Below, piece after piece: positions 3,865-40,660 of a stretch of 64,000 bases of DNA. Position numbers and translations under genes: made by a program. The notes beneath the pieces are model-generated. The model saw only the letters and a program-made list of their open reading frames with translations, was not told the origin of the DNA and made no database searches. The stretch's first letter is position 1. Every line of letters starts with the position of its first letter. The stretch covers positions 62,001-126,000 of the forward strand of contig NZ_JADYVD010000007.1 of NCBI RefSeq assembly GCF_020193575.1, read 5' to 3'. The stretch comes from Ensifer sp. IC4062 (GTDB lineage: Bacteria; Pseudomonadota; Alphaproteobacteria; Rhizobiales; Rhizobiaceae).

Positions 3865-3921
3865 GAGGCGATCTCCTTCTACGTCACAGTCCGTGGGCGA
3901 CTCTGGCGCAGCCTCGGGGGT

Positions 3922-4077
3922 TCATTGGTCGTACTGCCGGCGCGCGATGACGTCGATCTCGTTGCGGGAAATGCCGACATCCTCGAGCAAGTGATCATTC
4001 AATTGCGTGAACGTTCGGAGGGTCCGGCGATAGCGCTGGTGGGCGCGGATTCTCGACAGGATATGGGTCAAATACAT
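3922..4077 (-). CDS. Small DUF1127 (YjiS-like) protein
   Basis: This 51-residue arginine-rich protein begins MYLTHILSRIRAHQRYRR and contains the DUF1127 core, with a central hydrophilic helix, LLEDVGISRNEI, and a basic tail ending RRQYDQ. Short DUF1127 proteins in alphaproteobacteria have been linked to RNA turnover and phosphate or carbon metabolism; the role here is not known. A good ribosome site (AAAGGAAACG) precedes the ATG. It leads the trxB transcription unit, directly downstream of two TetR-type operator candidates. Confidence 0.85.
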   Translation of the reverse strand: MYLTHILSRIRAHQRYRRTLRTFTQLNDHLLEDVGISRNEIDVIARRQYDQ

Positions 4078-29643: not shown

Positions 29644-32600
29644 ATGCTACGGCACCGCTTAATCTTCCCCGTTGCCGGCATCGTTCTCGTTCTAAGTCTG
29701 GTCCTAGCCGGCCTATGGGTTTGGACCGGAAACGTCATGGTCTCGATCATGTCCGAGCGCCTGATCCGAGAGGTGACGCAAGCCGTGCATCGCGATGTCG
29801 GTCACTTGGTGCGCGGCGCCGAAAAGGCAGTTTCGCGATTGGCCAACGGCCTTGTTCGCCACGACGTATCACTCGCCGACCAGCATGCTGTCGCACGAGA
29901 GCTCTATGCTTTGCTGGCCGAGGAACCCGACGTCGATTGGATGTTTTTTGCCAACGAGGCCGGCGGACTCGTTTCGGCCGGGCGATTGGCAGACTCAAGC
30001 AGCGTATTTCTGATGAGCGATGGCTTTCACGCCGGCGTCGTGCGCGAGTTCGAAGCATTGCCAAGCGGCAGGGTTGGCCGCTTGCGAAAGTCGGAAGGCG
30101 CGTTCGATTCACGCGAGAGGGTCTGGTACACGCAGGCGAAGGAGACGGGCGAGCGATACTGGACCGAGCCCTATCTCGGCTTGGTCGAGCCCGTCTTGGG
30201 CATCTCGCTCTCCGCCCCGGTCTTCGACAACGACGGCAATTTCGTCGGGGTGTGCGGGATCGATCTCATTCTGACGCAGCTTTCCAGGTTCCTGCAGACA
30301 CTTGATGTCGGCGAGAATGGACGGGCCTTTATCGTCGATGCGACGGGACATTTGATTGGCGCGTCGGGAGGTGTGTCACCCGTCGCTATCGGCGCCGATG
30401 GCGGGCATCTGCGCCTGCAGGCATCAGAGGCCACCGATCCCATCGTCCGAGAAACTGCCCGCTATCTTCGTCGTAACCCAGGGATCGCCGAGTCAGCGGG
30501 GCCGCGCGTATTCTCTTTCAATAACCCTGAGCGCGGAAGGATCTACGCGGCTGTCGATCGCGCTGCACCCGGCGCACTTAAGTGGACCATCGTCTCCGCG
30601 GTGCCAGCCTTGGATTTCCTGCAACCCGTGTATCGCGCTGCCTATCTTTCGATTGTCGTCGGTGCGGGCATTGTCGCAGTCTTCGTGGTCTTCGGACTAT
30701 GGATGGTTGGACGCACGTTGCGACCGCTGACAGCCCTCACCCAGGCGGCGCATGCGGTCGCAAAAGGGGAATGGAGAGAGGTGCCCAGGGTTCGTCAAAA
30801 TGATGAAGTCGGCCTGCTCGCGCAGGCGTTCGCTCTCATGATGTCCCGCCTCAAGGATACGTTGGAGGGTCTGCGTCGAAGCGAGGCGAACTTCGCGGAA
30901 GCTCAACGCGTCGCTCACGTCGGCTACTGGGAACGTGATCTCGGCACAGACTGTCTTACCTGGTCAGACGAGACCTACCGCATCTTTGGGCTGACGCCCC
31001 GTGCCGGCACGCCGGTCAGTCTGGCCGAAGCAACTGAGCGGATACATCCCGAGGATCGGCCGAGCTGGAGCCAGGCCGCGGCGCGGGCCTTGCGTGGTGA
31101 AGGCCGCTACGAATTGGAATACCGCATCTTCCGGCCCAACGGCGAACTGCGCATCGTTCACAGCCAGGGCGATCTGACAAGGGACGCATCGGGCCGGCCG
31201 CACAGCATGTTCGGTACGATCCAGGACATTACCGAGCGCAAGCGGGCGGAAGAGGCACTGCGAGACAGCGAGGAGCAGTGGAGGGCCGTATTCGAGAACA
31301 ATCCGACGATGTACTTCATGGTGGACGCGACCGGCACGATCGTGTCCGTAAATCCCTTTGGAGCAGAGCAACTCGGCTATACGGTCGACGAACTGATCGG
31401 CAGTCCCGTAGAGGACGTCTTTCACGAGGCGGACCGAGACGCCGTCCAACGGCATGCGGCCGCCTGCCTCGATCGTCTTGGCGAAGCCATGAGCTGGGAG
31501 CTGCGCAAGATTCGCAAGGACGGTTCGATGCTCTGGGTCCGCGAGACGGCCCGGGCGATGGTAATCAAGAAGCGACCCGTCATCCTGATCGTGTGCGAGG
31601 ATGTCACCGAGCGCAAGCGCGCCGAAGAGGCGGCCCGACGGAGCGAGGACGAGCTTCGCTCCGTCATCGAGACGGTTCCCGCGATGGTGTGGACCGCGCT
31701 GCCCGACGGCCGTGTCGATTTCATCAATCGGCGATGGCAGGAGTTCACAGGCTTGTCGCTGGACGGAATGTCAGAAGGGAGCTGGACGCCCGAAGCCCGA
31801 TTTCATCCTGATGACGTCGAGCAGTATAGAGACAGGTGGCGCGTGTCCTTGGCCACGGGCCATCCGTTCGAGGCGGAGGTCAGGATTTGTCGCGCGGCCG
31901 ACGGCGAATATCGCTGGTGGTTTGAAAGTGCCGTCCCGCTCAGGGATGAGCACGGAAATATTCTTAAATGGTATGGTTTTCTCGTCGACATCGAGGACCG
32001 CAAGCGGGCAGAGGAGGCGCTGCAGAAGACGCAGGCCGAGCTTGCACACGTCACGCGCGTGACGACGATGGGCGCGCTGACCTCCTCGATCGCACACGAG
32101 GTAAACCAGCCGCTGGCCGCTGTGGTCACCAACGCGAATGCAGCCCTGCGCTGGCTCGCGACCGAGCCACCCAATATTGGCGAGGCGCGAGAGACGCTGG
32201 AGCGGATCGTCCGGGACGGCCACCGGGCCGGCGAGGTGATCGGCCGGATGCGCGCACTCCTTAAGAAGACGCCCACCGTCACGGCGCCGGTGGACCTGAA
32301 TGGCCTCATCGAAGATTCAGTGGCCCTCGTCCAGGGGGAGATCCGCCGCCACCGGATACTGCTGCGGACGGAGCTGGCGCACGACCTCCCACCCGTTACA
32401 GGCGACCGGGTCCAGCTGCAGCAGGTCATTCTGAACCTGGTGATGAACGGCATCGAGGCCATGAAGAAGGTGACGGACCGGCCTCGCGAGCTGCTTATCA
32501 GGTCTCGACGTGACCCATCCGAGGCCGTGCATGCGGCGGTACAGGACGCCGGCGTGGGGCTGGAACCCGACAGCGCGGAACGGGTGTTCGAGGCATTTTA

Positions 32601-32763
32601 CACGACCAAGGCGGAGGGGCTGGGCATGGGCTTGGCCATCTGCCGTTCGATCATCGAGGCGCATGGAGGACGGCTATGGGCCGAGGCGAACGAACCTGCG
32701 GGGGCTGTGTTCCAATTCACCCTGCCTTCAGACCGGGACGACAGCGCTTCTACCGCGCCGTGA
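29644..32763 (+). CDS. Membrane PAS-domain sensor histidine kinase, FixL/DctB type
   Basis: A 1039-residue hybrid-free sensor kinase. Two membrane helices (about 7-29 and 334-358) bracket a periplasmic dCache-like domain; a HAMP linker follows (WMVGRTLRPLTALTQAAHAV). Then come three PAS/PAC units, each ending in DITERKRAEEAL-, DVTERKRAEEAA- or DIEDRKRAEEAL-like linkers. The kinase core has His818 in SSIAHEVNQPLAAV, the HisKA variant shared by FixL, DctB and ThcS-type kinases, then NLVMNGIEAM and GLGMGLAICRSI. The ligand is unknown. The partner is probably the FixJ-like regulator at 33717 and/or the stand-alone receiver at 32906. The start has only a weak ribosome site. Confidence 0.9.
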   Translation: MLRHRLIFPVAGIVLVLSLVLAGLWVWTGNVMVSIMSERLIREVTQAVHRDVGHLVRGAEKAVSRLANGLVRHDVSLADQHAVARELYALLAEEPDVDWMFFANEAGGLVSAGRLADSSSVFLMSDGFHAGVVREFEALPSGRVGRLRKSEGAFDSRERVWYTQAKETGERYWTEPYLGLVEPVLGISLSAPVFDNDGNFVGVCGIDLILTQLSRFLQTLDVGENGRAFIVDATGHLIGASGGVSPVAIGADGGHLRLQASEATDPIVRETARYLRRNPGIAESAGPRVFSFNNPERGRIYAAVDRAAPGALKWTIVSAVPALDFLQPVYRAAYLSIVVGAGIVAVFVVFGLWMVGRTLRPLTALTQAAHAVAKGEWREVPRVRQNDEVGLLAQAFALMMSRLKDTLEGLRRSEANFAEAQRVAHVGYWERDLGTDCLTWSDETYRIFGLTPRAGTPVSLAEATERIHPEDRPSWSQAAARALRGEGRYELEYRIFRPNGELRIVHSQGDLTRDASGRPHSMFGTIQDITERKRAEEALRDSEEQWRAVFENNPTMYFMVDATGTIVSVNPFGAEQLGYTVDELIGSPVEDVFHEADRDAVQRHAAACLDRLGEAMSWELRKIRKDGSMLWVRETARAMVIKKRPVILIVCEDVTERKRAEEAARRSEDELRSVIETVPAMVWTALPDGRVDFINRRWQEFTGLSLDGMSEGSWTPEARFHPDDVEQYRDRWRVSLATGHPFEAEVRICRAADGEYRWWFESAVPLRDEHGNILKWYGFLVDIEDRKRAEEALQKTQAELAHVTRVTTMGALTSSIAHEVNQPLAAVVTNANAALRWLATEPPNIGEARETLERIVRDGHRAGEVIGRMRALLKKTPTVTAPVDLNGLIEDSVALVQGEIRRHRILLRTELAHDLPPVTGDRVQLQQVILNLVMNGIEAMKKVTDRPRELLIRSRRDPSEAVHAAVQDAGVGLEPDSAERVFEAFYTTKAEGLGMGLAICRSIIEAHGGRLWAEANEPAGAVFQFTLPSDRDDSASTAP

Positions 32764-32905: not shown

Positions 32906-33292
32906 TCACTCTTGCTGTCGCTTCCGCGCCAGCGCAGAACTGATGCAGTCCAGTAGATCCTGCTCCCCAAACGGCTTTTCCAGATAGCCGACAATGTCCG
33001 GATCCAATCCACGGGCGCGCAGATTTTCATTCGGATAGGCCGTGACCAGAACCGTCGGAATGCTCTCGCCTAGCGCAACGAGCCGGCGGTGCAGATCAAG
33101 CCCGCTCATCCCTGGCATATGAATGTCCGTTACCAGGCAAGCCGTGCTGCGGAGATTGGGGAATTTCAAGAAATCGTCGGCAGATGAAAAAGCCTCGGCA
33201 TCAAATCCGAGCGATCTCATGAGGCCCTTGGTAGCCTCGCGCATCGACTGGTCGTCATCGACAATCGCAATCAGAGGCTTCTTGGTTGGCAC
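32906..33292 (-). CDS. Single-domain response regulator (receiver only)
   Basis: A 128-residue receiver without output domain: acidic pocket VDDD (11-14), phosphoacceptor Asp56 in LVTDIHMPGMSG, Thr in VLVTAYP and Lys in YLEKPFGEQDLL. It resembles FixJ-type receivers. It lies on the opposite strand from the kinase gene, tail to tail. It could be a phosphate sink or competitor in signalling from the kinase, or act through protein contacts. Confidence 0.88.
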   Translation of the reverse strand: MPTKKPLIAIVDDDQSMREATKGLMRSLGFDAEAFSSADDFLKFPNLRSTACLVTDIHMPGMSGLDLHRRLVALGESIPTVLVTAYPNENLRARGLDPDIVGYLEKPFGEQDLLDCISSALARKRQQE

Positions 33293-33716: not shown

Positions 33717-34352
33717 ATGACCGAGATGCGCGCAACCGTCATCGTCATCGATGATGATCCGGCGATCCGCGAGGCGCTAGGCAGCCTGCTGCGATCCGTG
33801 GGCTTTGACGTGAAACTCCTCGCCTCAGTGGGCGACTTCCTCAAGTCCGGTCGACCTGACGGGCCGACCTGCCTCGTGCTGGATGTCCGGCTGCCGGGAC
33901 AAAGCGGCTTGGAATTTCAACGAGAGTTATCGCGGCGAAACATTCACGTCCCGATCGTCTTCATCACTGGGCATGGCGACATTCCGATGTCCGTCCAAGC
34001 CATGAAGGGGGGTGCGATCGAGTTCCTGACGAAGCCGTTCCGCGACCAGGATCTGCTCGACGCCGTTCACGTAGGCCTCGCCCGCGACCGCGTTTCGCTT
34101 GAGAATGAAAAGGCGTTGGCGACGTTGCGTGCGAGTTACGATAGTCTGACCCCGCGTGAACGCGAGGTATTGGTCTTGGTGGTGGCGGGACGGCTGAACA
34201 AGCAGATCGCCGCCGACCTGGGCGTGAGCGAAATAACCGTAAAAGTCCACCGCAGCCAGGTCATGCAGAAGATGCGTGCCAAGTCCTTGCCGGAACTCGC
34301 CCGCATGGCGGACAAGTTGAAGCTCGCGCCAGGAAGGCCGCAAAACTCATAG
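33717..34352 (+). CDS. FixJ-like response regulator with LuxR-type DNA-binding domain
   Basis: A 211-residue regulator. The receiver (1-125) has VIDDD, phosphoacceptor Asp56 in CLVLDVRLPGQSG, FITGHGDIPMSVQAMKGGAIEF and LTKPFRDQDLL; the output domain (about 140-203) has the LuxR/GerE helices SLTPREREVLVLVVAGRLNKQIAADLG-like and VSEITVKVHRSQVMQKM. GHGDIPM and the overall pattern are typical of FixJ/TodT-type partners of HEVNQPL kinases such as the one at 29644. GAGAGGGG precedes the ATG. An RNA-like element and strong terminator follow. Confidence 0.92.
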   Translation: MTEMRATVIVIDDDPAIREALGSLLRSVGFDVKLLASVGDFLKSGRPDGPTCLVLDVRLPGQSGLEFQRELSRRNIHVPIVFITGHGDIPMSVQAMKGGAIEFLTKPFRDQDLLDAVHVGLARDRVSLENEKALATLRASYDSLTPREREVLVLVVAGRLNKQIAADLGVSEITVKVHRSQVMQKMRAKSLPELARMADKLKLAPGRPQNS

Positions 34353-34360
34353 GTTCGTAT

Positions 34361-34536
34361 AGAGCATTTGAACCGGCGTATAGGTGATCCCCTCCGCGTT
34401 GGTAACCGATCCTTCCTCCCGGTCAATAGTGCTTTCGGGAGCGCACTGTTATGGTCAGGGAACTTCTTCCCGTGGGCCATTTTCCTTAAATCGGCCCCCC
34501 CTCAAACCCCTCCCGGTTCTCGGGAGGGGTTTTTTG
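34361..34536 (+). ncRNA. Candidate trans-acting small RNA with anti-Shine-Dalgarno motif (copy 1)
   Basis: The segment after the FixJ-like gene contains TCCTTCCTCCCG (34410-34421) in a loop-prone position, an 8-bp stem AATAGTGC/GCACTGTT (34425-34450, one G-T), a GGGAA-CTTC-TTCCC hairpin (34458-34471) and an intrinsic terminator. About 115 bases are clearly homologous, in reverse orientation, to 35622-35737. Conservation of a CU-rich motif, stems and terminator without a reading frame suggests an RNA that base-pairs with ribosome-binding sites. It resembles my recollection of the alpha-r14 (NfeR1) class; that identity was not checked. The 5' end is unknown. Confidence 0.5.
34504..34535 (+). 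terminator. Rho-independent terminator
   Basis: AAACCCCTCCCG pairs perfectly with CGGGAGGGGTTT around a 5-base loop and is followed by more T (to 34535). It would end the FixJ-like gene transcript and any small RNA initiating between 34353 and 34450. Confidence 0.9.
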
Positions 34537-34797
34537 TCTCGATAGCAGCTGCGCAGGCATAGCTGAGAGCAGTGACTGGCTCACGATCTCGGATCAGCCC
34601 CCATTCAGATGTTGAGCATCATCGAGCACCAAGCCGACGGTGGGAAACAACAAGGGAAATCAATCGCGGTTTGAAGTCGAGCGACCGGAAGTGGTTCGCA
34701 GCGACCGGGTATCAAACCGTCGCGACCCGCATGGGCGCTTGGGGCAAGAATCGATGATCTCAGGCGCGGGCAAGCAGGAGATGCCGGCCGCCAGGGC

Positions 34798-35148
34798 CTA
34801 ATGTATCGTTAAGGAATGCTGCAAAGGGTAAAGCTCCTCGAAGTCCTCTACAACGCGTAGAAGCTCGAGAGAGTAGAGCGAAAGACTGAACAGCGTGTCA
34901 GTGACATACAGGGTGAACGCAGTTGTCCGGGCGGGCAAGGCTTGCCCTCCACGAGGCCCGATTGCATGCCGTGGCGTGACGCAGATCGTCATTAGATGTG
35001 CTTCAGAGTGAGTATCCGGCCGCGCTGGATAGTTTGTCGGCATGTAGAACGGATGACTGGGTAGAGTGCTCCAGCCATCCGATACGCGCTGGGAGAACAA
35101 CTGCAACGGGAGCAGATCGATTTCTATGCGGTTGAGTTCCTGTGTCAT
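34798..35148 (-). CDS. Hypothetical protein
   Basis: A 116-residue reading frame starting MTQELNRIEIDLLPLQLFSQ, 11 bases after the stop of the secreted-protein gene upstream, with AGGGATTG before the ATG. It has no signal peptide, membrane segment or recognisable domain; the C-terminal third is Leu-rich (LFSLSLYSLELLRVVEDFEEL) and could be helical. The tight spacing argues for co-transcription. The function is unknown. The stretch 34537-34797 shows nothing I can support. Confidence 0.5.
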   Translation of the reverse strand: MTQELNRIEIDLLPLQLFSQRVSDGWSTLPSHPFYMPTNYPARPDTHSEAHLMTICVTPRHAIGPRGGQALPARTTAFTLYVTDTLFSLSLYSLELLRVVEDFEELYPLQHSLTIH

Positions 35149-35159
35149 CGTCACAATCC

Positions 35160-35480
35160 CTAGAAGGAACGCGGAGGAACGAAGAGGCAAATGGTGCGCC
35201 CTTTAGGCTCGCCGGCCACCGTGCAATGATGAAACTGCCCGTCCGGGCTGTTCTTGATGCGAGTATCTCGTGACGTGATAAGCTCGCCAGTGAGCTTGAT
35301 CACATAGCCTTGTGGGCCTTCGAGAACCGCTTGATCTCTAATCTCGCGGCAGTCCATTCCGCTGCAGCAGGAGAACGGGTATGTCCATCCGTTCGGCTGT
35401 GCCGCCGTTGGCGTCGCATCATGCGCCGCTGCCGGCGCAGCGATCACGACTGCGAAGAGAATAACTGCTGGCTTGCTCAT
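35160..35480 (-). CDS. Small secreted cysteine-containing protein
   Basis: The start at 35480 (MSKPAVILFAVVIAAPAAAHD) gives 106 residues with a clear signal peptide of about 20. The mature protein has FSCCSGMDCREI and a late FHHCTVAG and TICLFVPPRSF, five cysteines in all, suggesting disulfides or a metal site in the periplasm. The motif order is familiar from unnamed rhizobial proteins, but no function is known to me. It probably leads a two-gene leftward unit with the gene ending at 34798. Confidence 0.7.
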   Translation of the reverse strand: MSKPAVILFAVVIAAPAAAHDATPTAAQPNGWTYPFSCCSGMDCREIRDQAVLEGPQGYVIKLTGELITSRDTRIKNSPDGQFHHCTVAGEPKGRTICLFVPPRSF

Positions 35481-35942
35481 GATCCGCACCTCGATGCTGA
35501 ATTACGCCAGCTTCCTTTCGAATCTTCCTTCGAGCGAGATTGAGCCGCTGTGAACAGCGTCTCCGTCCTTTCAGGCGGTCCGCCTCTGGGAAGCGCCGGA
35601 TGAGGTATGAGTCATTCGGCCCACCGGAGGATGTACTGAAGATAGCAGCGCGCTCCCGGACGGGGCTATTGATCGGGAGGAAGGACCCGGTACCAACGAG
35701 GAGGAGATCACTTATACGGGGGTCTAATGCTTTTATGCGCGGGGCAGGGCGCCGGTGCCGCCGGTCTCCGGCTTAGCCGGACGAACACGCCAGTACCTGA
35801 GTTCGCGAACACCAGCAGCGGCTGCCAACGCCGCGGGACGCCGCTCGACGTTTTCGCACACGAAGCTATCTACCTTCTTGAGCAGCGGGACGCCTCTGTC
35901 GCGTAGTTGCCGCTCTGCCATCTGATGGGAGGAAAGGCCGAT
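35481..35942. other. Intergenic region containing the second RNA-like element
   Basis: Outside 35622-35737 no feature is seen. No coding frame is convincing. The ABC-importer promoter should lie between about 35740 and 35920. Confidence 0.4.
35622..35737 (-). ncRNA. Homologue of the 34361 small-RNA element (copy 2), possibly decayed
   Basis: Read on the reverse strand, the segment matches copy 1 over about 115 bases, including GTATA-AGTGATC, CTCGTTGGTACC, the invariant TCCTTCCTCCCG (35674-35685), CGGGAGCGC and GTGGGCC. It has an additional CTCCTCCTC run, again anti-Shine-Dalgarno-like. In the AATAG stem one pair changes T-A to C-G while another is lost. No terminator follows, so it may be a relic or depend on processing. 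Confidence 0.4.
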
Positions 35943-37172
35943 ATGCTGTCCCGTCCTGCGAGAGCCCTCGCCGCAGCGACCATGCTCCTTGGCTTGCCGG
36001 CGTTCGCTGAGGAGACCGTGCGGATATCGGGCTGGGGCGGGTCCGAGGTCGCGATTGTCAACGGACTATTGACGAACGTTCTTGCCGAAAAGCTCGCGAA
36101 AGAGGGAATAACGGTAGAGTACGAGCCCGTTGATGGCGACTTTTCGCAATTCATTCTCAACGGCCTGTCCGCGGGCACGGCTCCGGACCTTTTTTACGTC
36201 GATATCTTCTGGGCGCGCTCCATATTCAGCGCCGGTCAAGCGGCACCGGTAACGCAGGATGTTTCTGGTTTTGCAGCGAATCTCCTCGAGGCCTTCACCT
36301 ATGATGGGAAGCTTTACGCCGTCCCGAAGGACTTCAACGCTCTGGCGGTTCATTTCAACAAGGACATCTTTGACGATGCGCGGGTAGCCTATCCGAGCGA
36401 CGACGACACCTGGACAACCCTGCAACAGAAGCTGGTAGCGGTGCACAAGGCCCTTCCGGAGGTCGACGGCCTTTGCGTCGTTCCGGAATACGCCCGGTTC
36501 GGCGCCTTTGCATTGTCGACAGGCTGGTCCCCTTTCGATAATCAGGGAAAAACCGTGCTCGACGAACATTTTCGTCGGGCTTTCGATTTCTACACGGGTC
36601 TCGTGAAGTCTGGGGCTGCCGTCATGGCCACCGACGCAGGCCAAGGCTGGTCCGGTGGTTGCCTGGCGTCCGAACGGGCTGCCATAGCGATCGAGGGCGC
36701 CTGGATCATCAGCGCTCTGCGCGATAGTGCTCCCAACATGAATCTCGGCACTGTCCGGATGCCGAAAGACCCTGAAAGCGGCAAACGAGGCAATATCGTC
36801 TTTACCGTCGGATGGACCGTCAACGCGGCCTCAAAGGTCAGTAGGGCCGCTGCAAAAGTCGCCGAGCTCCTGACCACAGAGGAGGCCCAGCAATGGGTTT
36901 TGGAGCAGGGGCTGGCGCTGCCGAGCCGGACCGCCCTGGCTGACGACCCTTGGCTACGGGGCGGGCAGCCCGAACAGATGGCAAGCCGAGTGGTTCTCGA
37001 AGGCCTGTCGGACGATCACGTCGCGCCGTATTTCTTCGGAGAAGTCGGAGGGAGTTGGATGCAGCCGATCAATGCCGCGCTCAATTCCGTCATCCTCGGG
37101 GAGGTGGATGCCGACACAGCTTTGGCATCGGCACAAAGCGCGTTTGACCGGATGCTCGCAAAGCAACGCTGA
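35943..37172 (+). CDS. ABC sugar-type transporter, periplasmic binding protein
   Basis: The start at 35943 (MLSRPARALAAATMLLGLPAFA) follows GGGAGGAAAGG and gives 409 residues with a signal peptide of about 22. It has the cluster-B/MalE-type layout: WGGSEVAIVNGLL, GTAPDLFYVDIFWA, KDFNALAVHFNKDIF, AAIAIEGAWIIS, and a C-terminal GGSWMQPINAALN. Substrates of such proteins are mono- or oligosaccharides or glycosides; the specific one is unknown. It leads the operon with two permease genes. Confidence 0.9.
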   Translation: MLSRPARALAAATMLLGLPAFAEETVRISGWGGSEVAIVNGLLTNVLAEKLAKEGITVEYEPVDGDFSQFILNGLSAGTAPDLFYVDIFWARSIFSAGQAAPVTQDVSGFAANLLEAFTYDGKLYAVPKDFNALAVHFNKDIFDDARVAYPSDDDTWTTLQQKLVAVHKALPEVDGLCVVPEYARFGAFALSTGWSPFDNQGKTVLDEHFRRAFDFYTGLVKSGAAVMATDAGQGWSGGCLASERAAIAIEGAWIISALRDSAPNMNLGTVRMPKDPESGKRGNIVFTVGWTVNAASKVSRAAAKVAELLTTEEAQQWVLEQGLALPSRTALADDPWLRGGQPEQMASRVVLEGLSDDHVAPYFFGEVGGSWMQPINAALNSVILGEVDADTALASAQSAFDRMLAKQR

Positions 37173-37235
37173 CTTGCCCTGGGCTCCAACGGTTAGAGGG
37201 CGCGTGAGGCACGGGCATCCGCGGGAGGAGCATGC

Positions 37236-38324
37236 ATGTCGCGAACAAGTTCGGAAGAGAGGAGCGGCTGGCTCTTCGTGTTGCCTTTCACAATCTCAAT
37301 GGCGCTGTTTTTTGTCTACGCGATCGTCCGGACAGCCTTCTACAGCTTCGCCGATTACGACTTGTTCAAGGCTCCAGGCTTCGTCGGGCTCTCCAACTAC
37401 GCAGCATTAATCTCCGATGAACTCTTCCTCATCGCCCTGCGAAATACGATCGGCTTCTCGATCCTCGTCACAACGGTCCAGACGGTGCTTGCGCTTGCCC
37501 TGGCGGTTCTCGTGAACCACGCCGTCCGGGCGAGGGGACTCGTACGGACCGTGTTTTACCTGCCATCGATCATGTCCAGTGCGGCGATGACGCTTATCTT
37601 TCTCTGGCTCTTTCAGAGAGATGGCTTCATGACCGCAATCGTGAGCGTCGTGCTTGCTTATCGCCACCACATCCTTTTGTTCTTCGTCGGCTTCACGGCA
37701 CTGCAGGGCGTGCTCGTTCTCAACGCACGGCGCACGTACGAAGGTGTTTCGATCTTCGATCCCTTCTTTCTGCTCATCGCTGCCATTGGCGCGCTGGCGC
37801 TTGTCGGTGCTTGTGGCCTCGCGGGATTGCTGCCGGTTTTCGACAACCATCTACGTATCTCCTGGCTAAATACCCAGCGGCATTTCCTTTTCATGCCGGT
37901 GACGTTGTGGTCGGTGGCGTTGATGAATGTCTTTACGACGGTCCCAACGCTGATGCTGCTGTTCTTGGCGGGCCTACAGTCGATCCCGAGCGCGTTGTAC
38001 GACGCGGCCGAGATCGACGGAGCCAACGCCTTCCAGCGATTTCGCCACATAACCGTGCCCGCGCTCAGGCCGGTGACCTTTGCCGTCGTTACGATGGGCA
38101 TCATCGGTACGCTGCAGATGTTCGACCAGGTCGCGATTCTGGGAGATGCGGCGCCCCTCGCGAGTCGAGTGACGCTTGCCTACTACGTTTACGAAAATGC
38201 CTTTCCGGCAGGCGCCTCTTCGCGGATCGGAATGGCGAGTGCTGCGGCGCTCGTCCTTGGCATTCTCACAATTGCGGTCGTCTACGTGCAGAAGTCGATC
38301 GGCGTGAGGGAAAGGGGCGACTGA
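37236..38324 (+). CDS. ABC transporter permease, MalF type, enlarged
   Basis: A 362-residue inner-membrane permease, about 70 residues longer than the usual 290. The EAA loop YDAAEIDGANAFQRFRHITVPAL is intact near residue 255 and marks contact with an ATPase. An extra hydrophobic hairpin (about 145-205, HHILLFFVGFTALQGVLVL and FLLIAAIGALALVGACGLAG) interrupts the normal six-helix core. Its TGA overlaps the ATG of the second permease (TGATG). Confidence 0.88.
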   Translation: MSRTSSEERSGWLFVLPFTISMALFFVYAIVRTAFYSFADYDLFKAPGFVGLSNYAALISDELFLIALRNTIGFSILVTTVQTVLALALAVLVNHAVRARGLVRTVFYLPSIMSSAAMTLIFLWLFQRDGFMTAIVSVVLAYRHHILLFFVGFTALQGVLVLNARRTYEGVSIFDPFFLLIAAIGALALVGACGLAGLLPVFDNHLRISWLNTQRHFLFMPVTLWSVALMNVFTTVPTLMLLFLAGLQSIPSALYDAAEIDGANAFQRFRHITVPALRPVTFAVVTMGIIGTLQMFDQVAILGDAAPLASRVTLAYYVYENAFPAGASSRIGMASAAALVLGILTIAVVYVQKSIGVRERGD

Positions 38325-39721
38325 TGGCGAGGGTGACTGCTGCCGATGCTTCGCCCTCGCGTCGCCGTCTGCCTGCCGGCGCGCTGCGCCGGCGGCAGCT
38401 TGCGGCAAGCGCCTGGCTGTATCTGATCTTTCTTGCCGTGGCGGCCATCATGGCGGGCGCATTCGTTCTTGCCTTTATGGCGAGCTTGAAGGTCGATCCA
38501 CTAGAGAGACCCTTCCGTTTCCATTTCGATCAGCTCAACCCGGCCGCATGGATCGCCGCCGCGCGTTTGGGGCAGGAGGGGGCGGATGACGCTTTGTGGG
38601 GAGGGCTCTCTCCTGGCGCCAAAGTTGACTTCAGCGTCACTTACGCAGCACCCGCCGGGACTACGATCGTGGAACCGAGAGCCGAGATTCCGCGCCGCCG
38701 CCCGGGCTCGGGCGTCGCCGCGGCGCTCATGCGGTATTATGCGGCGGATTACGCGTCAATTGCGCTGAAAACGTCCAGTTCGGCAATGATGCAGGTCCGT
38801 GACGAGACGGGAATTTTGCAAGCGTGGCAGACGCGGACATTCGTCTATGAGATCACCTACCGCCGCGATCGCCAGAACGGACCTCGGATCGAACGCACAC
38901 CCCTCAACCTCACCGCTCCGCCCTCTCAAACGCTTGTCGACAGTCCCATTTCCCCATCGCGCGCCGAGCGCCGCGGACGTCTGTTGAGTTGGGACAACAT
39001 CACACCGGGCGCTCTCGGGCTGATCTTCAACAACTACCGCCGGGTGATAAACGAGACGGCTGACCTGCAGACCGGGAAAAGCCTGTTCGGAAGCTGGCTG
39101 GTCAACAGCTTTGTCATCGCCATCGGGCGCCTGCTCCTGACGCTCGTCGTCGCCAGCCTTGCGGGATATGCGCTTGCGCGGCTCAAGTTCAGGGGCAGCC
39201 GGTTACTGTTCGCAGCACTGCTTTTCTCGATGACAATTCCGGCGCAAGTGACCTTCGTCTCGAACTATCTGATCTTCAGGGATCTGTCGCTTCTAAACAC
39301 GCCCTGGGCCGTGATCGTCGTCGTCGTCGCCTCGGCCAATGTCCTGTTAATGAAGCAGTTTTTCGAGGGCTTCCCAAGAGAGATAGAGGAAGCCGCAATC
39401 GTCGACGGCGCCAACCGCTTTCAGGTGTTCTGGAAGATCATCCTGCCAAACGCCAGGCCGGCTTTGTTGGTCAACGCGATTCTCGCCTTTCAAGGCGCTT
39501 GGAACGACTTCTTTTGGCCCCTCGTCCTTATCACCAGCCCACCCGAAGCGCTGACGGTTCAAGTCGGGCTTCTCAGCCTGCGTCGTTCGTTCGGGGGTGC
39601 GCAGGGCGATTGGGGACTCGTTCTGGCAGGTGCGTTCCTCTCGGTCGTGCCGGTCCTTATCCTTTTCGCGCTCTTCCAGCGGCACATTGTCTCCACCGAG
39701 TTCACCAAGGGCATCACATAG
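38324..39721 (+). CDS. ABC transporter permease, MalG type, with large periplasmic insertion
   Basis: A 465-residue permease, far longer than the usual 280. After the first helix (WLYLIFLAVAAIMAGAFVLAFM) comes a polar insertion of roughly 165 residues (about 50-215) before the standard permease core; the EAA loop is EEAAIVDGANRFQVFWKIILPNA. The insertion has beta-type and charged sequence (KVDFSVTYAAPAGTTIVEPR) and would face the periplasm. No ABC ATPase gene follows: the next gene is a cyclase. The importer must share an ATPase encoded elsewhere. Confidence 0.88.
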   Translation: MARVTAADASPSRRRLPAGALRRRQLAASAWLYLIFLAVAAIMAGAFVLAFMASLKVDPLERPFRFHFDQLNPAAWIAAARLGQEGADDALWGGLSPGAKVDFSVTYAAPAGTTIVEPRAEIPRRRPGSGVAAALMRYYAADYASIALKTSSSAMMQVRDETGILQAWQTRTFVYEITYRRDRQNGPRIERTPLNLTAPPSQTLVDSPISPSRAERRGRLLSWDNITPGALGLIFNNYRRVINETADLQTGKSLFGSWLVNSFVIAIGRLLLTLVVASLAGYALARLKFRGSRLLFAALLFSMTIPAQVTFVSNYLIFRDLSLLNTPWAVIVVVVASANVLLMKQFFEGFPREIEEAAIVDGANRFQVFWKIILPNARPALLVNAILAFQGAWNDFFWPLVLITSPPEALTVQVGLLSLRRSFGGAQGDWGLVLAGAFLSVVPVLILFALFQRHIVSTEFTKGIT

Positions 39722-39928
39722 AGCTCCCAGTGTGATGGTGGCTTTCCAGAAGCGATCGTCCAGGCCGGACATTACGACATACGCCTTGCACCGCAGCCCG
39801 CATATTGACGAGCGCTTGATCGAAATCGGCGAGATGTTCCTTTTGGTCCTTTCCGATGTGTCTTCGAAAGATTTTCCGACGAAGATGTGCGAGAATCACG
39901 GGCGACACCAATAGGGAGCCGCGGCGAC

Positions 39929-40660
39929 ATGTCGTTTTCTCGATCGAGAATCTGCAAGGGCTGCTGGGAGCAGATGCGTCTCCCCGTGCCTTTGCGTGGG
40001 CCAGCGTCCATTCCCTTCCGCGCGTTCGGCATCCGGCCAAGCCGGATGAATCCGAACACCTGCACGGTTTGCGAACTCATGTTCACCCGGGTGATGAAGG
40101 CTCGCAAGATTACGGTTGACGTGTCTGTACTTTTTGCAGATTTGAGGGGCTATACGACGCTGTCGCAGTCGCTTTCGGCAGATACAGTCTCGTCCCTACT
40201 TGACGATTTTTACGATGAATGTGCTGCAGCCATTTGGGAATTCGATGGTCTGCTTAACAAGACCGTCGGTGATGCGGTCATGGCGATTTTCAACTTTCCG
40301 ATCCCCCACCAGGACCACGCCGAACGTGCCGTGCTGGCTGCAAGGGAGATTCAGCGTCGCTGTCAATTGCGTCGCGAGCAGCACGTGGCTGAAGGCTTCG
40401 ATGGAAGCGAATTCGGCGTCGGCATCGGCATCGACTCGGGTGAGGCCAGCTTTGGAGAGTTCGGTCGGTCGCATCGAGACCTGACTGCTATTGGAACGGT
40501 GGTGAATACTGCCGCTCGCGCCCAGGCAGCCGCTGAAGCGGGCCGGATTCTCGTCACCAGGGCCGTTCGCGATCGGGCGCAGGGTCAGACGGCGGCAAGC
40601 ATAAGCCGGGAATACCGTCTGAAAGGTTTTGAGAAGCCGGTTGAGCTTTACGCCATGTGA
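39929..40660 (+). CDS. Class III adenylate/guanylate cyclase with N-terminal CxxC pairs
   Basis: The start at 39929 (MSFSRSRICKGCWEQMRLP) follows GGGAG and gives 243 residues. An N-terminal module has ICKGCWEQ and, 30 residues on, NTCTVCELMF, two CxxC pairs suited to metal binding or redox sensing. The catalytic domain (about 60-235) has the metal Asp in LFADLRGYT, NKTVGDAVMAIF, and DLTAIGTVVNTAARAQ with the transition-state Asn and Arg. It should make a cyclic nucleotide in the cytoplasm. It lies 207 bases after the ABC permease genes, without overlap, so may be independent. Confidence 0.88.
   Translation: MSFSRSRICKGCWEQMRLPVPLRGPASIPFRAFGIRPSRMNPNTCTVCELMFTRVMKARKITVDVSVLFADLRGYTTLSQSLSADTVSSLLDDFYDECAAAIWEFDGLLNKTVGDAVMAIFNFPIPHQDHAERAVLAAREIQRRCQLRREQHVAEGFDGSEFGVGIGIDSGEASFGEFGRSHRDLTAIGTVVNTAARAQAAAEAGRILVTRAVRDRAQGQTAASISREYRLKGFEKPVELYAM

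Follow-up and report, generated by a model that had tools for sequence, protein, structure and literature searches.

Cuckoo RNAs and CcsR (CIN1 locus) are reportedly alphaproteobacterial small RNAs (sRNAs) with CCUCCUCCC-type motifs. CcsR-like sRNAs often lie beside short DUF1127 proteins, according to the available part of the source (PMC10253847). AbcR1, AbcR2 and MmgR, which are SuhB-like aSD sRNAs, are characterized in the accessible portion of another account as short rhizobial RNAs that act in trans and carry CU-rich anti-Shine-Dalgarno (anti-SD) motifs (PMC7143759). For alpha-r14, excerpts of two papers give three hairpins, each bearing an identical CCUCCUCCC motif (PMC10746234, PMC7143759). 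In Listeria, the available text on the LisR-LhrC1-5 system presents response-regulator-dependent sRNAs whose unpaired CU-rich regions bind SD sequences (PMC5880928).

Here we analyze a pair of inverted elements in a stretch of 64,000 nucleotides from Ensifer sp. IC4062 (contig NZ_JADYVD010000007.1), called the window in the following. Both matching stretches look like copies of a single conserved promoter linked to the neighbouring two-component regulator, and not like a duplicated sRNA. A literature search found no title or abstract opening that describes this unit, which does not imply its absence from print.

The inverted pair and its neighbourhood

A BLAST search within the genome aligned 34363-34478 (+) and 35731-35618 (-) with an identity of 78% (E 2.5e-17), confirming the inverted similarity reported by the first-pass annotation. 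In the 7.1 Mb genome these two are the only strong copies, the remaining BLAST rows having E values of 0.9 or worse, and a profile search at E<=10, in which 150 of 2350 first-look candidates were scored, returned the same two only. The similarity fades shortly past a promoter-like -10 box and is not spread over an RNA. Copy 1 begins about 20 nt past the stop codon of a response regulator gene, directly downstream of it as had been claimed, and a strong intrinsic terminator follows copy 1 and none follows copy 2, also as described before. The pair had further been said to flank two small genes; it does enclose two small minus-strand ORFs, but copy 2 is on their strand and directly upstream of both, which is more than a flanking position. 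No coding signal was found on either strand of the core, in agreement with the initial view that neither element holds a plausible reading frame. The supposedly invariant motif TCCTTCCTCCCG is present in both window copies (in copy 2 as the complement of 35674-35685), but Rhizobium relatives carry TCCTTCCTGGTG.

The regulator is FixJ-like, not FixJ: its best NCBIfam model is FixJ, with 203.4 bits against a cut-off of 255, and the upstream kinase scores 308.7 bits against the 850-bit FixL equivalog cut-off. The inverted pair is tightly linked with this FixJ-type regulator; both proteins of what had been called a FixL/FixJ-type system resemble FixL/FixJ but miss the equivalog cut-offs. Judging from the neighbourhood, the kinase and a single-domain receiver protein are probable partners of the regulator (Table 1). 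Beyond the pair, a sugar ABC transporter set was identified by eye at 35907-39721, the domain scan having covered its binding protein only, and an ORF with an adenylate/guanylate cyclase catalytic domain lies behind it at 39887-40660 (+).

Table 1. Positions in the window of the genes, core copies and predicted RNA features discussed in the text
Feature	Position	Strand	Basis or remark
Histidine kinase (dCache, HAMP, PAS, HisKA, HATPase)	29644..32763	+	Domain and family profile matches
Single-domain receiver protein, between kinase and regulator	32906..33292	-	Pfam
FixJ/NarL-type response regulator	33717..34352	+	Pfam Response_reg 7.2e-27, GerE 2.8e-22
Copy 1 of shared core	34371..34458	+	Predicted activator-dependent sRNA promoter; profile R1 88.1 bits, not independent because the training set included this copy
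Motif TCCTTCCTCCCG of copy 1	34410-34421	+	About -52 to -41 of predicted start; read as promoter DNA from distance to -10 box
Extended -10 box TGtTATGGT, copy 1	34447..34455	+	Position at core end
Predicted sRNA, ~75 nt	34461..34535	+	Predicted start at 34461-34463; fold z -4.10; covariance model R2 73.1 bits, not independent because R2 was trained partly on this sRNA
CU-rich unpaired 5' end CUUCUUCCCG, candidate seed	34463..34472	+	Predicted structure, relatives' alignment
Hairpin 1 of predicted sRNA	34474..34497	+	Predicted fold and model
Intrinsic terminator of predicted sRNA	34504..34532	+	U-run to 34535; fold and terminator prediction
p130, second small gene	34798..35148	-	Start taken at ATG 35148
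p109, 106-aa small cysteine-containing protein	35160..35480	-	First gene behind copy 2; ATG 164 nt after -10 box
Copy 2 of shared core	35636..35724	-	Predicted small-gene operon promoter; R1 76.0 bits; relatives before same genes
Extended -10 box TGcTATCTT, copy 2	35639..35647	-	Position at core end

The shared core as predicted promoter DNA

Across 41 distinct copies, RNAalifold predicted no pair in a consensus structure of the ~90-nt core and mutual information revealed no helix-forming covariation. Mean fold z was -0.36 for 30 sRNA-type and -0.48 for 26 gene-type cores, and copy 2 alone folded no better than its shuffles (z +0.78). The core is nearly gap-free and contains eleven invariant columns, among which are GTATA close to its start and, close to its end, the A and the final T of TA...T. 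The TAnnnT box at this end keeps to the same columns in 40 of the 41 copies aligned; if a shift of up to five bases is allowed it is present in 59 of 60. It is preceded by a TG extension in 43 of 60 and fits an extended -10 element (TGnTAnnnT). Because no consensus structure was found and the core ends in this near-invariant box, we read it as probable promoter DNA with a predicted start site. A generic sigma-70 consensus scan of the locus found 0 promoters where 0.6 were expected, which suggests that the core lacks a recognizable -35 element and, if a promoter, is probably activator-dependent. With a start at about 34462, TCCTTCCTCCCG would fall near -52 to -41, probably upstream of the start site and outside the RNA, where it could not serve as the anti-SD motif for which it had been taken.

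Two context classes

The 62 distinct copies that we compared fall mainly into two contexts. Twenty-nine come directly after a regulator gene and share its strand, L123 being included only by a 39% single-domain receiver homolog; 26 of these have a terminator, L112, L124 and L125 being the exceptions, and in 26 of the 29 the core begins 15-35 nt past the end of the regulator match. Three copies from Bradyrhizobium, all with a terminator, stand divergent from the regulator. Another 27 precede p109 and/or p130 on the strand of these genes, and a terminator was called in three of the 27 (L030, L119, L146). Four copies have neither neighbour, and one (L112, Rhizobium indicum) is counted in both classes. 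In the latter (L112:8000-8088), regulator, one core and p109 succeed one another on a single strand, which looks like a fusion of the two classes by recombination. Neither class accommodates the second L031 copy, L122 and L151, and L022 fits by its RNA only. Two copies often face each other at a distance of about 1.1-1.9 kb, as in the window.

The position of the sRNA unit varies. It is found after the regulator in Rhizobiaceae and L044, divergent from it in Bradyrhizobium (L046, L047, L051, L075, L163, L164 and L168, with L165 a duplicate of L051), and on another contig in L022; the unit moves as one piece. In two genomes of the genus (L022:2013-3017, L123:59-988) the neighbour of the unit is not p109 but an ORF that looks by eye like a MoxR-type AAA ATPase. 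In L044 a second, weak promoter-profile match (3868-3933, 17.3 bits) occurs behind the sRNA, upstream of an ORF near 4026 that resembles a sigma-32-type factor by eye.

A predicted small RNA behind copy 1

Copy 1 leads into a likely small RNA. The segments downstream of copy-1-type cores share a layout of ~11-17 mostly unpaired and usually C/U-rich nucleotides, followed by a hairpin, a linker and a terminator. Their fold z is -4.10 in the window (34460-34535), -4.96 in L035, -5.13 in L075, -3.50 in L022 and -4.17 in L109 from Sinorhizobium fredii CCBAU 45436. The means are -3.73 for the sRNA class versus -0.49 for the gene class (Mann-Whitney p 2.6e-9), with values below -2 in 28 of 30 versus 3 of 26 copies, a contrast inflated by the fact that the sRNA class was partly chosen by terminator presence. 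When only the first 46 nt are folded, essentially without the terminator, the means are -1.98 and +0.03. The covariance model R2, built on 25 of these sRNAs, also matches outside its training set in L034, L144, L118, L123, L046, L047, L163, L164, L168 and the Acetobacteraceae MAG locus L044, and weakly in L051.

Comparison across relatives for compensatory changes, as the first-pass annotation had proposed, yielded none in the core and modest pair covariation in the sRNA part. Counted on an alignment fitted to the R2 model, 92.2% of cells are paired with 9 two-sided changes, values that 0 of 500 shuffles reach; four of nine pairs changed on both sides, which 30 of 500 shuffles reach as well. 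A control with partners slid by one column gave 10 two-sided cells versus the 9 true ones, and with a MAFFT alignment the covariation term was zero.

The CU run at the 5' end is long in Rhizobium sRNAs (for example TTCCTTTCCTCCTCCC). Bradyrhizobium copies read CTCTCCTCCC or similar, L044 reads TTTCCTCCC, and CTTCTTCCC is shared by several Sinorhizobium copies including that of the window. Several relatives have UCCUCCC or CCUCCUCCC in this place, and in the Bosea copy L031 a run of C takes the place of the CU-rich seed. Judged from these runs, relatives show a clear predicted anti-SD character at the 5' end, and the window shows a weaker one. Pairing of the seed with the starts of p109, p130 and the regulator (up to three local genes at 12 loci) was not better than that of shuffles, and therefore targets, if any, are probably elsewhere in the genome.

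The small genes behind copy 2

Neither p109, whose N-terminus looks signal-peptide-like by eye, nor p130 matched a Pfam or NCBIfam family at E<=0.01. In the 19 copies where the p109 start is complete, its ATG is located 30-176 nt past the core match. Where p109 is lost or a remnant (L110, L111, L133, L149, L150, L152, L153) the core stands before p130, which argues that copy 2 is a promoter or leader of the small-gene operon and not an sRNA. In two further loci (L146:939-1334, L148:948-1334) the p109 C-terminus has diverged and the promoter core is still in front.

Homologs of p109 occur in all 33 genomes of the genus that were searched, at about 45-65% identity besides the orthologs at 85% or more. 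Among seven plasmid loci with p109 homologs a core is present in one (L161, 92% identical over the matched part), and R2 matches none of the seven. Since p109 is found in every genome and six of these plasmid loci are coreless, the gene alone does not bring the core with it.

Gene-type leaders often keep a CU tract near the start, the longest run averaging 6.1, as compared with 4.0 for control stretches and 10.0 for the regulator-adjacent class; this CU-richness is outside what a simple promoter model explains. The predicted p109 leader of the window likewise begins with a CU-rich stretch followed by GGGCC (35635-35611, -) that resembles the 5' end of the sRNA, and gene-type leaders elsewhere do so too.

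Co-occurrence with the regulator and distribution

In the genus of the window the element was detected in 13 of 33 genomes by BLAST and in 18 by profile. A regulator ortholog (85-100% identity) and the core are found in the same 18 of the 33, and the other 15 have neither (two with paralogs of 66-67% identity, 13 with no match at that threshold); these genomes are not independent, and shared descent of one module may account for part of the co-occurrence and weakens the statistics. The p109 promoter lies on another contig than the regulator in G021, 66 kb away in G025 and 37 kb away in G001, and in G012 (L022) it is the sRNA that is on a different contig. As these unlinked units have nevertheless been retained, linkage alone does not explain retention. 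An in-frame stop was considered in the regulators of G001 and G025; in G025 (L124), the one that was checked, it is the natural protein end.

Regulator and sRNA are not inseparable. The sole core found in G017 and G030 is of the gene type, and among 13 loci with a regulator of 82-90% identity (L029-L041, with L032 counted through its duplicate L016) a core is present in 12 and an sRNA-type core in 11, L030 having the gene type only and L036 no core. Among 67 regulator loci at 57-76% identity (L042-L108), accepted matches were confined to L044, L046, L047, L051 and L075. R2 scored weakly on L084 (E 0.012) and on L074 (E 0.47), and neither match was accepted. Most of the 67 loci had no match, among them two at 75-76% identity.

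Outside the genus, the predicted sRNA recurs next to the regulator in Rhizobium, Bradyrhizobium and one Acetobacteraceae MAG. Plasmid records with the element number 29, of which 28 are from Rhizobium and 1 is from Sinorhizobium, and 15 of 18 genomes with chosen regulator homologs have it as well. In the genus of a Bradyrhizobium carrier the promoter matched in 7 of 146 genomes, two of these matches (L166 and L167) being weak and having no regulator hit in the locus. A family-wide search with strict filters and even sampling recovered at least 6 of 394 genomes.

Proposed mechanism and alternative explanations

We consider it likely that the two copies are paralogous, convergent promoters of one regulator-linked regulon, copy 1 driving the ~75-nt sRNA and copy 2 the p109-p130 operon. 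This proposal draws on sequence comparison, namely the shared core, the -10-like box, the RNA structure behind copy-1-type cores only, the small genes behind copy-2-type cores and the co-occurrence with the regulator. The kinase would phosphorylate the response regulator, which could then bind the ~70 bp of conserved sequence ahead of each -10 box and, acting as activator and not as repressor, switch on sRNA and operon together from the predicted start sites near 34462 and 35632. The CU-rich 5' end of the sRNA might pair in trans with the ribosome-binding sites of mRNAs encoded elsewhere, and the operon would supply p109, a small secreted-looking protein, and p130, a small protein without known family. 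A tentative addition, with a low chance of being correct, is that the sRNA and the operon mRNA each begin with a related CU-rich, anti-SD-like tag, whereby the operon leader may compete or partner with the sRNA.

The original proposal, in which both copies are trans-acting anti-SD sRNAs duplicated with inversion, draws strength from the similarity of the pair, the CU-rich motifs and the terminator behind copy 1. Parts of it survive: the locally inverted pair is conserved, and copy 1 does contain a predicted sRNA. As a whole we find it improbable, given that copy 2 has neither RNA structure (z +0.78) nor terminator, the core is unstructured in 41 copies, the segments downstream of gene-type cores average z -0.49 with no terminator call in 24 of 27, and a small gene starts 30-176 nt past the match in all 19 copies where the p109 start is complete. 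Alternatively, the RNA of copy 1 might be the 3' UTR of the regulator mRNA with its terminator, possibly processed and without a promoter of its own. The absence of a predicted terminator between the regulator stop codon and copy 1 and the short spacing of 15-35 nt in 26 of 29 copies would suit such an origin, which nevertheless seems unlikely: in Bradyrhizobium core and sRNA are divergent from the regulator, in L022 (G012) they are on another contig, and the same core also precedes p109.

It is also conceivable that the whole core is transcribed, as a 5' leader or regulatory RNA of both transcripts that starts upstream of or near GTATA and whose CU motifs 1 and 2 act in the RNA. The conservation of these motifs in sequence and the invariant GTATA, which could itself be a -10, speak for this arrangement; the core however has no structure and ends in the near-invariant TAnnnT, with structure beginning just past that box, and we therefore hold it to be doubtful. 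Finally, conservation could reside on the opposite strand, in a small peptide antisense to the core (frame ..IDREEGSDTNAEGITYT), and by eye many copies do keep one frame open across this stretch, which is nearly gap-free. Stop-free frames nevertheless number 20, 20 and 1 of 41 against 16.2 +/- 3.0 by shuffle (17, 22 and 1 on the other strand), no clear three-base periodicity is seen, and the 1-nt length difference between the classes shifts the frame. On frame counts and periodicity this candidate was rejected, and we give it hardly any chance.

If the preferred reading of two paralogous promoters is true, it would add to rhizobial two-component systems an sRNA family with no Rfam 15 match that comes with a ready regulator hypothesis, and would provide a testable binding site for a FixJ-like regulator. 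It would also illustrate that a conserved promoter with CU-rich DNA motifs can pass for a duplicated RNA.

Comparison with known systems

A search of the pair and ten relatives against Rfam at relaxed thresholds, of the kind the first-pass annotation had suggested for alpha-r14 and other families, and a scan of the whole window at gathering thresholds brought no family to threshold on the sRNA. Scores below threshold that overlap the RNA or its terminator came from anti-hemB (L022, L123), 6C (L031) and aspS (L075). In Bosea sp. LC85, sub-threshold matches to the Brucella sRNA CI27 (L031:2563-2699 and L031:4083-4240; 42.6 and 36.4 bits, threshold 59.8) lie in inverted orientation around the same regulator.

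With alpha-r14 the predicted sRNA shares a CU-rich, anti-SD-like unpaired stretch in a rhizobial RNA. The suggested membership in an alpha-r14/NfeR1-type family is not supported: alpha-r14 (RF02344) scores 16.0 bits (E 3.6) against a gathering threshold of 58.8, a scan of the window at gathering thresholds gave no alpha-r14 hit, and the match rests by eye largely on the terminator. Where the available descriptions of alpha-r14 give three CCUCCUCCC hairpins, the RNA here has a single 5' CU stretch, CUUCUUCCC, and two hairpins. AbcR1/AbcR2 and MmgR are similar in being short rhizobial sRNAs with a CU-rich anti-SD motif, but are portrayed in the accessible text with three stem-loops and a placement of the motifs in loops or in unpaired sequence of another kind, and they gave no Rfam match at the window locus or in the relatives scanned. 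As to the Cuckoo/CIN1 type, no short DUF1127 gene was found among the flanking genes scanned; neither of the small genes matches a Pfam family at E<=0.01, and the remaining scanned neighbours are regulators, the kinase, a transporter protein and the cyclase.

The Listeria LisR-LhrC1-5 system, as far as its available description goes, offers a likeness in organization, a response regulator together with a CU-rich sRNA; we claim no sequence relation, and dependence on the regulator is a prediction in our case. The unpaired CU-rich stretch within a short terminated RNA recurs here in the predicted structure. Unlike in LisR-LhrC, one sRNA and one operon would share a promoter in the system described here, and the sRNA gene usually adjoins the regulator gene.
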